This document shows positions 10,854-62,427 of a stretch of DNA of 64,000 nucleotides, in pieces; position 1 is the stretch's first letter; each line of letters opens with the position of its first letter. The notes below the pieces were generated by a model. The model did no database searches. It saw only the letters and a program-made list of their open reading frames with translations, and was not told the origin of the DNA. A program made the position numbers and the translations under genes. This DNA comes from Variovorax boronicumulans (GTDB taxonomy: Bacteria; Pseudomonadota; Gammaproteobacteria; Burkholderiales; Burkholderiaceae_C): contig NZ_JAAAFX010000004.1 of assembly GCF_019352895.1 (NCBI RefSeq), positions 1,511,286-1,575,285 on the forward strand. Direction: 5' to 3'.

Positions 10854-10882
10854 ATTATGAAAGGGGATTCGGGCGATGTCAC
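10854..10882 (-). promoter_or_regulatory. Sigma-70-like promoter of the T6SS island
   Basis: On the minus strand GTGACA (10882-10877) and CATAAT (10859-10854) are separated by 17 bases, giving a predicted start near 10847 and a leader of about 55 bases before vgrG. It is the best promoter match upstream of the island and is not experimentally shown. Confidence 0.5.
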
Positions 10883-10956
10883 TTTTAGGCGCGGACGCGA
10901 CAGACAGCGGCCCATTCCCAACGGTGCGAGGCATGGGCCGCTGGAAGAATGGACGC

Positions 10957-12276
10957 ATGCAAGAAGCCCACGAAATGCTCACCGACGAAGCCGCCATCGT
11001 CGCCGCCGCTCACGCCCTGCGTGCCGAATCCGTCGCCATGCTGAGCGAACTGGTCACCCACCCGTCGCTGCTCGGCCACGAGCAGAGCGCGCAGGCCTTC
11101 ATGGCCGAGGCCTTCGAGGGCCTGGGCCTGCAGGTGGACCAGTTCCAGATCGACGAGGAGAAGCTGAAGGCCCATCCCGGTTACTCGCCCTCGATCGTCT
11201 CCTACGAAGGCCGCACCAACGTGGTCGGCATCCACCGCCCGAGCGGTCCGTTCAAGGGCAATTCGCTGATCTTCAACGGCCACATCGACGTGGTGCCCAC
11301 CGGCGCCGAGGTGCTGTGGACCGACGCGCCCTTCTCCGGCAAGGTCGACGGCGACCGGCTGTACGGCCGCGGCGCGTCGGACATGAAGGCAGGCATCGTG
11401 GCCTACACGATGGCCTACAGAACGCTGAAGTCGCTGGGGCTCGAGCCCGCGTCGCCGGTGTATTTCCAGTCGGTGATCGAAGAGGAATGCACCGGCAACG
11501 GCGCGCTGGCCTGCCTGGTGGCCGGCTACCGCGCGGATGCGGCCGTCATCACCGAGCCGATCGCCGAGAACGGCGTCATGACCTGCCAGATGGGCGTGCT
11601 GTGGCTGGCCATCGAGGTGCTGGGCAAGCCCGTGCATGCCTCCGTCGCGCAGACCGGCGTGGGCGCGATCGACTTCACGATGTACCTGTTCGGCGAGCTG
11701 AAGAAGCTGGAAGAAAGGTGGAACGCCCCGAGCGCGCGCTACCGCAGCTTCGCGCACCACAACCACCCGGTGAACTTCAACCTCGGCAAGATCAGCGGCG
11801 GCGAATGGGCGTCTTCCGTGCCCTCGGCCTGCCGCGCCGACGTGCGCATCGGCTTCTACCCGGACATGAAGGTCGAGAAGGCCAAAAAGGAAGTCGAGGC
11901 CGTGCTGGCGGCCGCCTACGAGGCACACCCGGCGCACACCGCGCTGAGCTACAAGATCGTCTACGAGGGCTTCCAGGCCGACGGCTGCCACGTGCCCGAC
12001 GACGCGCCGATCGTCACCGCCATCTCGCAGTGCCACAAGGACATCGTCGGCATCGACCTGACACCGACCGCCTTCACCGGCACCACCGACGCGAAGTTCT
12101 TCAACCTCTACGGCGAGACGCCGGCCATCTGCTACGGCCCCTCGGGCGGCGCCAACATCCACGGCATCGACGAGTGGGTGTCGATCGACAGCCTGATGCA
12201 GACCACCGCGGTGCTGGCGGTGTTCATGGCGCGCTGGTGCGGGGTCAATCGACTGACCGCCGCCCCCAGCGCCTGA
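10957..12276 (+). CDS. M20-family deacylase (ArgE/DapE type)
   Basis: This 439-residue metalloenzyme is related to acetylornithine deacetylase and succinyl-diaminopimelate desuccinylase. The M20 metal motifs are clear: GHIDVVP with the first His/Asp, LYGRGASDMKAG with the bridging Asp, and IEEECTGNG with the general-base Glu-Glu pair; a late His lies in GGANIHGIDEW. The ATG at 10957 is preceded by GGAAGA and fits family length; upstream in-frame ATGs at 10876 and 10933 would extend into the T6SS promoter region. The likely reaction is hydrolysis of an N-acylated amino acid, with the substrate unknown. It ends exactly at the first arm of the 123-base repeat element. Confidence 0.85.
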   Translation: MQEAHEMLTDEAAIVAAAHALRAESVAMLSELVTHPSLLGHEQSAQAFMAEAFEGLGLQVDQFQIDEEKLKAHPGYSPSIVSYEGRTNVVGIHRPSGPFKGNSLIFNGHIDVVPTGAEVLWTDAPFSGKVDGDRLYGRGASDMKAGIVAYTMAYRTLKSLGLEPASPVYFQSVIEEECTGNGALACLVAGYRADAAVITEPIAENGVMTCQMGVLWLAIEVLGKPVHASVAQTGVGAIDFTMYLFGELKKLEERWNAPSARYRSFAHHNHPVNFNLGKISGGEWASSVPSACRADVRIGFYPDMKVEKAKKEVEAVLAAAYEAHPAHTALSYKIVYEGFQADGCHVPDDAPIVTAISQCHKDIVGIDLTPTAFTGTTDAKFFNLYGETPAICYGPSGGANIHGIDEWVSIDSLMQTTAVLAVFMARWCGVNRLTAAPSA

Positions 12277-12396
12277 AAGGGCGAAGGCGCCGTCGCGAGC
12301 GGCCCGAGCCTGCATCGAGGATCGGCGCCGCACGCACGTGCAGTGAGGACCGCAGGTGCGGGATCGGGTCGCGCAGCAGGCGAATTCGCCCTTTCA
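12274..12396. repeat. 123-base hairpin element, copy 1, between convergent genes
   Basis: The element is bounded by a perfect 12-base inverted repeat: TGAAAGGGCGAA (12274-12285) and TTCGCCCTTTCA (12385-12396). The outer TGA and TCA are the stop codons of the M20 gene and the AraC gene. The core, about 12290-12380, matches the reverse complement of 61530-61635 at most positions, and both copies are 123 bases long. The core contains a small CCGCA-GG-TGCGG hairpin (12350-12361). A bidirectional terminator or mobile palindromic unit is the likely role. Confidence 0.85.
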
Positions 12397-13203
12397 GTCG
12401 AGGTCGTTGCGTCCCAGGTAGTGCTTGGGCGTCTTGCCCATCACGCGCCGGAACATCGCGGTGAACGCACTGGGGCTCTCGTAGCCCAGGTCCATCGCCA
12501 CGGTGGTGACGGCGGTGCCCAGCGACAGGCGCCGCACGGCTTCCATCAGCCGCACCTGCTGGCGCCACAGCGTGAAGGTGATGCCGGTCTCGTCGCGGAA
12601 CAGCCGGGTCAGGGTGCGCCGGCCCAGTGCGCCGAAGCGCGCCCAGTCCTCCAGATCGCCTTCCCGGCCCGGGTCGGCCAGCAACGCCTTGCAGATGCGC
12701 AGCAGGCGTGCATCGCTGGGCATGGGCACGTGCAGCGGCACCTTCGGCGCGGCGCAGATCTCGTCGAGGATCAGCCGCATCACGCGGCCGTCGCGGCCCG
12801 CTTCGTCGTAGAGCAGCGGAATGTCGATGGCCTCGATGATCAGCTGGCGCATCAGCGGCGAGACCTCGATCACGCAGCATTCGTCGGGCAGGTTGGGCGA
12901 CGCGTCCGGCTGGATGTAGAGCGAGCGGTTCGACACCGGCTGGCCGCGCGCATGCATCTCGTGCTCGATGCCGCCCGGCACCCAGACGGCACGGTTGGGC
13001 GGCACCAGCCACGCGCCTTCCTGCGTGTGGAGGGTGAACATGCCCTTCACCGCGTAGGCCAGCTGGGCCCTCGGATGCGAATGGCGCGGAACGATCATCG
13101 AGGGCTCTGGATCGTGCTCCACGATGATCATCGACACCGGGCGCGGGATGTCCTGGTAATCGACGGCGAGCTGGCTGCGGACGGGGTTCAAGCTGTTGAT
13201 CAT
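12394..13203 (-). CDS. AraC-family regulator with cupin sensor domain
   Basis: This 269-residue regulator has an N-terminal cupin-like sensor domain (RHSHPRAQLAYAVKG, with VPPNRAVWVPGGIEHEM) and a C-terminal double helix-turn-helix (about 165-265) ending in the AraC signature VAMDLGYESPSAFTAMFRRVMGKTPKHYL. The ATG at 13203 is used; a GTG directly before it at 13206 is also possible. It is divergent from the peptide-type transporter operon 216 bases away, so control of that operon is likely. The inducer is unknown. Confidence 0.85.
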   Translation of the reverse strand: MINSLNPVRSQLAVDYQDIPRPVSMIIVEHDPEPSMIVPRHSHPRAQLAYAVKGMFTLHTQEGAWLVPPNRAVWVPGGIEHEMHARGQPVSNRSLYIQPDASPNLPDECCVIEVSPLMRQLIIEAIDIPLLYDEAGRDGRVMRLILDEICAAPKVPLHVPMPSDARLLRICKALLADPGREGDLEDWARFGALGRRTLTRLFRDETGITFTLWRQQVRLMEAVRRLSLGTAVTTVAMDLGYESPSAFTAMFRRVMGKTPKHYLGRNDLD

Positions 13204-13419
13204 CACGGTGTTCCGGCACGCAAGAATTGCGCCAAACGAGGGTAACGGATGGTGGCCCGCGCAAGTCCGAGGGTCAACCCAGGCCGAGGATGGCCCGTGC
13301 GGAACAGAACTCGGCTCGAACCCTGCAACGCGGGCGGAGGGGGCTCCCTACACTGAATTCGCCATACGACGCTCACCGCACACACCGTGCGGCAGTCCCA
13401 TCCCTTCCCGAGGATCACC
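13204..13419. promoter_or_regulatory. Divergent control region between the AraC gene and the transporter operon
   Basis: This 216-base gap has no gene. A hairpin, CCGCAC-ACACC-GTGCGG (13376-13392), ends 27 bases before the binding-protein ATG and may act as an operator or leader structure. A TACACT at about 13350 could be a -10 box, but no convincing -35 partner was found. Confidence 0.35.
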
Positions 13420-60894: not shown

Positions 60895-61529
60895 TCAACG
60901 TGGTGATCTGCGACGACCATGCGCTGGTGCGCCGCGGCATCCGCCAGACGCTGGGCGAGGCCGTCGACATCCGCGTGACGGCCGAAGCCGCGAGCTATGC
61001 CGAGGTGCGCGAGCTGCTGCGCAACAACACGCCGTGCGACGTGCTGCTGCTCGACCTGGGCCTGCCCGGGCGCAGCGGGCTCGAGGTGCTGAGCGCCATC
61101 CTCGCCGACGGCGAAACGCCGATCCGCGTGCTGGTGGTGTCGATGTTCACCGAGGAGCAGTACGCGATCCGCTGCCTCAAGGCCGGTGCCCAGGGTTTCG
61201 TGAGCAAGGCCGGCGATCCGGCCGAGCTGATCGCCGCGACCCGCACCGTGGCCTACGGCCGCAAGCACGTCACGCCCGAGCTCGCGCAGATGCTGGCCGA
61301 CAGCGTCTCGCGGCCCACCGAGGCGGCCGCCCCGCACACGGTGCTGTCCGACCGCGAACTGCAGACGCTGGTGATGATCGCCTCGGGCAAGCGCCTGTCG
61401 AGCATCGCCGAGGAACTGATGCTGAGCCCGAAGACCGTGAGCGTCTACCGCTCGCGCGTGCTGGAGAAGCTCAACCTCGCGAACAACGCGGCCATCACGG
61501 TCTACGCGATCCGCAACAACCTCGTTTGA
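60891..61529 (+). CDS. NarL/FixJ-type response regulator
   Basis: This 212-residue regulator has a receiver domain (acid pair D8-D9, phospho-acceptor Asp55 in LLLDLGLPG, Lys106 in FVSKAGD) and a LuxR-type HTH (about 148-205, LSDRELQTLVMIASGKRLSSIAEELMLSPKTVSVYRSRVLEKL). It is the partner of the kinase. The stop codon forms the first bases of the second 123-base hairpin element, and the next genes are convergent flagellar genes. Confidence 0.9.
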   Translation: MINVVICDDHALVRRGIRQTLGEAVDIRVTAEAASYAEVRELLRNNTPCDVLLLDLGLPGRSGLEVLSAILADGETPIRVLVVSMFTEEQYAIRCLKAGAQGFVSKAGDPAELIAATRTVAYGRKHVTPELAQMLADSVSRPTEAAAPHTVLSDRELQTLVMIASGKRLSSIAEELMLSPKTVSVYRSRVLEKLNLANNAAITVYAIRNNLV

Positions 61530-61649
61530 ACGCGCAAATGAACCTGCTGCGCACCCCGATCCCGCACCTGCGGTCCTCACCGCACGGGAGTGCGGCTCCG
61601 GTCCTCGATGCAGGCTCGGGGCGCTCGCGACGGTTCCTTCACGCGTTCA
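61527..61649. repeat. 123-base hairpin element, copy 2, between convergent genes
   Basis: The outer arms are TGAACGCG (61527-61534) and CGCGTTCA (61642-61649), extended to 12 pairs if two G-U pairs are allowed. The core matches copy 1 (12274-12396) in reverse orientation without gaps over 123 bases. A CCGCAC-GGGA-GTGCGG hairpin lies inside (61579-61594). The first TGA is the response regulator stop; the far end lies eight bases before the fliR stop. Confidence 0.85.
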
Positions 61650-61656
61650 GGCGGGC

Positions 61657-62427
61657 TTAGCGGCCGCCGGCAAACAACGAGATCATCCGCTCCATCAGCT
61701 GGAGCAAGGGCTGCTCCATCATCGGCAGCACCAGCGCGATGCCGGCCAGGCCGGTGGTCAGCGTGACCGGGAAACCGATGGCGTAGATGTTCATCTGCGG
61801 CGCCACGCGCGAGATCACGCCCAGCACCAGGTTCACGAACAGCAGCAGGCCGATCATCGGCAGCGCGATCCACAGCGCGCTCGCGAACAGGTCGGTGCCG
61901 AGTTCGTGCATGCGCAGCCGCGTGAGCGCATCGAAGACGCTGCCGCCCACCGGGAAGGTGTCGAAGCTCTTGACGATCGCCATCAGCACCGTGAGATGCC
62001 CGTTGATCGCGATGAACAGCAGCACCGCGATGTTGCCCAGGAAGCGCGACACCGCGCTGGTCTGCGCATTGCTCATCGGGTCGAAGAAGGCCGCGAAGTT
62101 CAGCCCCATCTGCAGGCCCACCAGTTCGCCCGCGAGCTCGACCGAGGCGAACACCAGCCGCACCGCGAAGCCGATGGTCATGCCGATGCCCACCTGCTGG
62201 ACCAGCGCGCCCAGGCCCGCGGTCGCATTGAGCGCCACCACCGGCTGCGTGGCCAGCGTGGCCTGCGCGCACAGCGCCACCATGAAGGCCAGGCCCACGC
62301 GCGCGCGCACCGGGAAGGCGCGCGAGTTGAAGATCGGCGCGGTGGTGAACACGCCCAGCACGCGCAGGAAGGGCCACAGCACCGGCGTGACCCAGGCCAT
62401 GAGCTGCGCTTCGGTAAAGGTCAGCAC
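61657..62427 (-). CDS. fliR: Flagellar export gate protein FliR
   Basis: This 256-residue inner-membrane protein has about six hydrophobic segments. Family marks are PLLRVLGVFTTAPIFNSRAFPVRARVGLAF-like residues near 18-48 and the C-terminal PLLQLMERMISLFAGGR. It forms the type III export gate with FliP and FliQ. It is the last gene of the fliNOPQR run and starts 22 bases after fliQ. Confidence 0.92.
   Translation of the reverse strand: MLTFTEAQLMAWVTPVLWPFLRVLGVFTTAPIFNSRAFPVRARVGLAFMVALCAQATLATQPVVALNATAGLGALVQQVGIGMTIGFAVRLVFASVELAGELVGLQMGLNFAAFFDPMSNAQTSAVSRFLGNIAVLLFIAINGHLTVLMAIVKSFDTFPVGGSVFDALTRLRMHELGTDLFASALWIALPMIGLLLFVNLVLGVISRVAPQMNIYAIGFPVTLTTGLAGIALVLPMMEQPLLQLMERMISLFAGGR

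Follow-up and report, generated by a model that had tools for sequence, protein, structure and literature searches.

A palindromic element of about 123 nt, present in two copies in the window (the analysed stretch of 64,000 nucleotides from Variovorax boronicumulans, contig NZ_JAAAFX010000004.1), inserts mostly at stop codons and in a fixed orientation, and the whole hairpin including its arms moves. It is regarded here as a non-autonomous mobile palindrome at stop codons which, with a probability of roughly 60%, is moved by Y1/HUH-like single-strand processing of the hairpin formed by one of its strands, the model strand R1. The element looks like a clean natural case of mobile DNA that is flexible in sequence and fixed in structure: at the same site in sister species the arms differ by double substitutions, and a purine mismatch between them stays. 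It makes testable how elements reach gene ends and how small palindromes move without an obvious transposase, a question also open for CGTC repeats according to one study (PMC3733652).

The two copies in the window

Table 1. Coordinates of both element copies and of the adjoining genes within the window.
Feature	Position	Strand	Remark
Element copy 1	12274..12396	+	Model R1 strand
Copy 1, outer arm, 5' side (12 bp)	12274..12285	+	First TGA is the M20 peptidase stop
Copy 1, conserved purine mismatch	12286..12286	+	G facing A at 12384; model positions 15 and 113
Copy 1, unpaired GTC at core foot	12292..12294	+	GTA in other copies
Copy 1, core hairpin	12295..12377	+	Its G/A internal loops are near invariant
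Copy 1, outer arm, 3' side	12385..12396	+	Final TCA corresponds, on the minus strand, to the AraC-type gene's TGA stop
Peptidase M20 family, left neighbour of copy 1	10876..12276	+	
AraC-family regulator, right neighbour of copy 1	12394..13206	-	Stop abuts the element
Element copy 2	61527..61649	-	Model R1 strand is the minus strand
LuxR-type response regulator, gene end	61077..61529	+	TGA 61527-61529 abuts copy 2
Bac_export_1 family gene, other neighbour of copy 2	61657..62427	-	Stop TAA

The copies described in the initial annotation form a gap-free alignment of 123 bases, 104 of them identical (12274-12396 on the plus against 61649-61527 on the minus strand), and the paired arm changes reported for them are real: among 47 modelled pairs 36 are the same in both copies, five show double and four single changes, and two are broken in one copy. 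Folded as single hairpins on their shared strand (127-base stretches), copies 1 and 2 reach -83.7 and -81.0 kcal/mol, where shuffled sequences average -55.2 and -52.2 (z -7.4 and -7.2). The description of the gene ends was partly right. A TGA stop does lie at each copy, but the cited triplets sit at opposite ends of the element: copy 1 has the M20 peptidase stop on its left, and the inverted copy 2 has that of the LuxR-type regulator (61527-61529) on its right. Copy 2 also begins with a TGA at its left end, but this one does not stop the neighbouring gene, which we take to be FliR-like and which ends in TAA (61659-61657) seven bases before the element. The far arm of copy 1 does supply the stop of the convergent AraC-type gene, as had been claimed. 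A location between convergent genes holds for both window copies and not in general, since a strict convergence test was passed by 32 of 126 copies.

Family size and distribution

In its own genome copy 1 has 41 blast matches at E <= 10, among which no autonomous copy was noticed; 27 places, copy 1 included, match at E <= 1e-8, which excludes the chance duplication that had been named as the alternative. A model built from 26 own-genome copies gives at least 32 matches in the same genome. With this model the element was found in 57 of 101 Variovorax genomes, with at least 34 matches in the richest and no copy detected in the other 44, as well as in 129 of 399 genomes (60 of 141 genera) of the same bacterial family; copy numbers from these large genome searches, in which filters were stricter and no more than 8 or 34 candidates were scored in each genome, are lower bounds. 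In a sample of the phylum, 18 of 398 genomes and 15 of 212 genera were positive; four of the 18 genomes belong to the own family, and relatives beyond the family are weaker. A scan with an exact pattern returned 70 stretches, of which 51 match the model, including stretches from Variovorax, Rubrivivax, Giesbergeria, Rhodoferax, Zoogloea, Zeimonas, Solimonas and Stagnimonas, and 19, one of them from Variovorax, do not. Searches of plasmids (blastn) and of viral contigs (exact pattern) returned no element.

The set of 126 copies used below consists of the 26 own-genome copies (the weak L026, L028 and L030 and the self match L029 being left out), 82 of the 141 rows of the wider search (58 reverse-strand rows and one weak second match left out) and 18 rows from the 51 matching pattern loci, most other loci of which were taken as repeats of genomes already used, with short forms and second matches left out.

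Element length is mostly 124-128 nt, 133-135 nt with a side insertion and 62-118 nt in shortened forms. Internally shortened forms (L348, L351, L352 and L353, 62-104 nt) retain the arms and the basal module, and given such forms the apex of the hairpin seems dispensable. With an exact pattern for short forms, six places in six of 101 genomes were found, of which four (G009, G010, G018 and G047) were judged real and two due to chance. An autonomous version, its two halves flanking a gene, was considered and rejected, as half-length matches were either these internal-deletion forms of 62-104 nt or weak, and region L349 held none. In a Rhodoferax MAG (L184:4997-5297) two matches in the same orientation lie 49 bases apart, the second of them weak.

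Other families of the phylum hold a subtype about 147-148 nt long (L415-L418, L421 and L422), which shares the basal module and has a different apex; some of its copies also lie at stop codons. A phylum-wide class of single-strand mobile hairpins may be imagined, with a conserved basal module (CCGTCGCGAGCG..GCGCAGCAGG), exchangeable apices and arms, any translation stop as target and a stop codon of its own that would render insertion neutral; we put this forward tentatively and consider it rather unlikely.

No match to the element above the gathering score was found with Rfam in the window and in sets of 16 and 15 loci, where just tRNA and CrcZ were detected elsewhere; below threshold there were matches to miRNA models alone, far under their cut-offs. 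Neither in Rfam nor in the literature searched, whose coverage mostly lay outside subscription papers, was an earlier description found.

Structure of the hairpin and covariation

Across the 26 own-genome copies 94.8% of cells hold standard pairs, 22 of 47 pairs show double changes (slid controls 6-11 pairs) and none of 500 shuffles attains the covariation score, although these copies are paralogues with shared ancestry, so that changes counted in them as covariation or wobble did not arise independently. A further 29 copies were taken from other genera, roughly one from each genome and some from the same genus; in these 34 of 47 pairs are double-changed and 1212 plus 99 of 1363 cells pair; the 22 listed unpaired positions are near invariant in them, except position 23 (A 15, C 14). 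Pairing ends sharply at model columns 3/125, where 83% are paired as compared with 57% after shuffling, and beyond these columns the excess is nowhere clear, reaching at most 58% vs 49% three positions out. In many genomes the arms are locus-specific, yet the purine mismatch 15/113 is kept, with G.A in 65, A.G in seven and paired or other bases in 13 of 85 copies. In the same 85 copies model positions 21-24, which lie inside the stem, read GTCG in 54, GTAG in 26 and otherwise in five.

One strand is the folded one, since G-T pairs outnumber A-C mismatches by 328 (GT/TG) to 55 (AC/CA) in the 85 ungapped of the 126 copies, and by 99 to 9 in the set of 29 from other genera. Copies inherit a G-T position once it is fixed, and the counts therefore do not stand for independent events. 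Taken pair by pair, the 29 copies show more wobble at 17 pairs, more A-C at four and equal numbers at 26. The R1 strand folds better in 124 of 126 copies. Its orientation relative to the replication strand, judged by eye in one genome, is mixed.

Support for the earlier proposal that selection acts on the hairpin comes from the covariation, the strand bias and the near-invariance of unpaired bases. Covariation among paralogous mobile copies is, alone, no proof of cellular function, and screens that look for RNA by covariation could be misled by such families. A structured RNA, 3' untranslated or antisense, that spread as repeats and was retained because it protects or regulates a transcript would account for the covariation, the near-invariant loops, the usual place 3' of a gene and the existence of apparently old copies, such as those directly behind ftsZ in two Variovorax species and another genus. 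That the arms are still complementary in apparently old copies speaks against a mobile element as well, as complementarity should not be needed once selection for movement has gone. However, the best-folding strand is antisense to the adjacent gene, a clearly convergent gene able to transcribe R1 is found at just 32 of 126 copies, flanks past the borders are not conserved in 60 Variovorax copies, 44 of 101 Variovorax genomes have no detected copy, and many copies are polymorphic between sister species. An RNA function is therefore judged improbable.

Position at stop codons

The end of the element that constantly meets a gene is the right one on R1: in 106 of 126 copies an opposite-strand gene has its stop there, between -6 and +4 relative to the element, whereas at the left end this applies to nine; at random positions a stop was met in 70 of 5040 cases (1.4%). 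Among the right-end stops 63 lie at -1, and TGA (89) prevails over TAG (9) and TAA (8). The gene calls behind these counts and behind those of convergence are heuristic (codon-position GC), and one set appears to miss genes. Of the 20 copies not scored at a stop, some have one at -1/+1 with a weak coding signature, and in others it lies further in or none was found. Because the abutting gene lies on the opposite strand and stops at the right end, R1 is the template strand of that gene.

In the 32 convergent loci, spacers held 19 TGA/TCA triplets other than stops as against 58 gene stops (32 of the right gene and 26 TGA of the left gene). Since most non-coding TGAs in compact spacers are stops, targeting of TGA together with selection could give a large bias, and the preference for stop codons may in part arise from a TGA-like target in this way, with no need for translation to be sensed.

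Filled and empty sites

Comparison of sister species, in which sites are filled in one and empty in another, supports the option of a palindromic mobile unit, one of three offered in the initial annotation. In clean cases, read on R1, the empty site has one TCA (the TGA stop) and the filled site reads TCA-element-TCA, with an in-frame TGA kept. Behind a gene taken to be fba (the names fba, ftsZ, lpxC and gltB being putative assignments from the sequence), the own genome (G000) reads TGA-element-TGA with an intact reading frame and the genome G001 reads TGA; both retain a downstream GC hairpin with a TTTTTT terminator. The element occupies one of 30 Variovorax fba loci, that of G000; 25 other readable loci have another spacer after the stop, and the four that were unreadable by script hold no model match. 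Behind ftsZ it occurs in two of 30 Variovorax loci and also in another genus (L103).

When 23 gene ends of G000 were compared with G001, one had no match and one a non-orthologous match only; the 21 comparable ends comprise seven filled in both species (one of them shortened) and 14 unfilled in G001, one of these 14 with another hairpin. The cleanest junctions are those at L007, L010, L012 and L021, in addition to L016 at fba, and not all 14 spacers are alignable. At the G001 site corresponding to the own-genome copy L005, a different and unrelated-looking hairpin (L320) stands at the same gene end. For 33 further young-looking copies from other species, relatives could be lined up in 17 cases, all without the element, which is absent from all 50 relative loci retrieved. 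Insertion of the core alone into the loops of pre-existing terminators was rejected, as clean empty sites lack the arms.

A family of bidirectional intrinsic terminators, likewise proposed at the outset, would agree with a hairpin at gene ends that sometimes lies between convergent genes. It is highly improbable, given that the element is tied to one gene end only, that a GC hairpin followed by a T-tract, by which intrinsic terminators are recognised, is lacking at both window copies, that the arms are absent from empty sites, that the native fba terminator persists downstream of the element, and that relatives do without the element.

Border triplets were read in 54 hand-chosen, young-looking Variovorax copies, 15 of them among the 26 of G000 and the others spread over five further Variovorax genomes. 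On the left 41 have TCA, four CTA, three TTA and six another triplet; on the right 43 have TCA and 11 another. At L192 the left triplet is TTA and the right TCA, with TTA at the end in the nearest relative; at L008 and L015 TCA stands where G001 has TAA and TAG stops. As the filled genes at these three loci end in TGA and their relatives in TAA or TAG, a TCA/TGA brought by the element is favoured over a simple duplication, where we infer the ancestral stop. At L013, L014 and L229 the left triplet, the right triplet and the stop of the relative form no clear pattern.

Mode of movement

The main rival to single-strand mobilisation is an ordinary MITE moved by a DDE transposase, with the arms as imperfect terminal inverted repeats, a 3-bp target duplication (TNA, usually TCA) and arm complementarity kept by template switching or conversion. 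TCA on both sides and a single TCA in clean empty sites would fit such a duplication, and the context is near-palindromic, with C before the left triplet in 72% and G after the right triplet in 72% of 60 Variovorax copies. Further evidence comes from one orthologous gene end in three species (L022, L196 and L202), where pairwise comparison gave 7, 5 and 7 double and 1, 1 and 4 single changes, with 3, 3 and 2 pairs broken in one copy and the purine mismatch flipping between A.G and G.A; slow compensatory substitution suggests fewer double changes than this. The excess may stem from template switching, from conversion between copies, from independent insertion or from strong selection. Against the rival, template switching should remove the mismatches and internal loops, yet these are near invariant; moreover, wobble pairs are strand-biased, and the two triplets of L192 differ, the stop of the relative matching the left one. 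We consider a MITE of this kind clearly less probable than not.

Single-strand mobilisation of the IS200/REP-like type is the favoured mechanism on account of the strand-specific fold with its conserved mismatches, the CA at both borders and the fixed relation to TCA. A putative enzyme would recognise the folded single R1 strand, cut after the CA of TCA at either border and join the element 3' of another TCA, on the model of the handling of IS200/IS605 and REP sequences by Y1/HUH transposases. The TCA on the gene side would then belong to the element, and that on the far side would be the displaced old stop. A TGA target may in part explain the preference for stop codons, where an insertion would be harmless as it brings its own TGA. 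For REP transposases, strand-specific recognition, required mismatches and cleavage at CT or CA are described (PMC8266576).

Of the 101 Variovorax genomes, 92 carry a Y1 (RAYT-like) transposase gene, as a single copy in almost every case; the gene is thus commoner than the element (57 of 101). In the five loci read among L248-L257 it lies upstream of a gltB-like gene. The flanks of the Y1 gene in ten genomes gave no convincing match to the R1 model (best E 0.33). RAYT was therefore rejected as the obvious mobiliser, neither the spread of the gene nor its flanks linking it to the element.

Comparison with known palindromic repeats

The element was filed as comparable to REP, ERIC and YPAL, all small palindromic mobile repeats. 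It resembles REP and REPIN sequences (RAYT = TnpA-REP; GTAG and CGTC super-families), as described in PMC3733652 and PMC8266576, in its palindrome, its strand-specific features with required mismatches and its place close behind gene ends; unpaired CGTC- or GTAG-like letters stand at the foot of the stem, and cleavage at CA or CT would be possible. A REP is defined in PMC3733652 as a palindrome of 20-40 bp with an unpaired GTAG or CGTC tag at its end, whereas the present element has 123 nt and its tag lies inside a longer stem with variable arms. REPs usually exceed 100 copies according to PMC2817692, in contrast to at most a few dozen copies detected per genome here (lower bounds). GTAG-type REPs sit with a RAYT gene, an association that was not found for the element in the flanks from ten genomes.

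Insertion just behind stop codons is reportedly described in the original paper on YPAL. YPAL (RU-2 of Yersinia) has about 168 bp and duplications of 3-26 bp at dyad symmetries, and like the present element it is a non-autonomous palindromic repeat of 100-200 bp without TA ends and with filled and empty sites (PMC2229807). The element is shorter and has a TCA border at stop codons. ERIC (IRU, RU-1) of enterobacteria, a palindromic, MITE-like, dispersed repeat of similar length (127 bp), has TA termini and a 7-bp TIR (PMC2229807), whereas the borders here are mostly TCA, the arms long and the hosts different.

In the wide sense the element is a MITE, being short, with terminal inverted repeats and insertion polymorphism; as to target duplication and a cognate transposase, the TCA on both sides may be either a duplication or the end of the element. 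Integron attC sites are imperfect palindromes right behind a stop codon, of which the bottom strand folds with extrahelical bases. They share with the element the imperfect palindrome behind a stop and the strand-specific fold; conservation concerns the core in the element and the outer boxes in attC.

A different, dispersed-looking hairpin of about 105 nt (GGGCACGA..TCGTGCCC), which had no Rfam match in 16 loci scanned, 14 of them from the ftsZ-lpxC set, was observed in 16 of 30 ftsZ-lpxC gaps of Variovorax (L258-L287), behind ftsZ where read.
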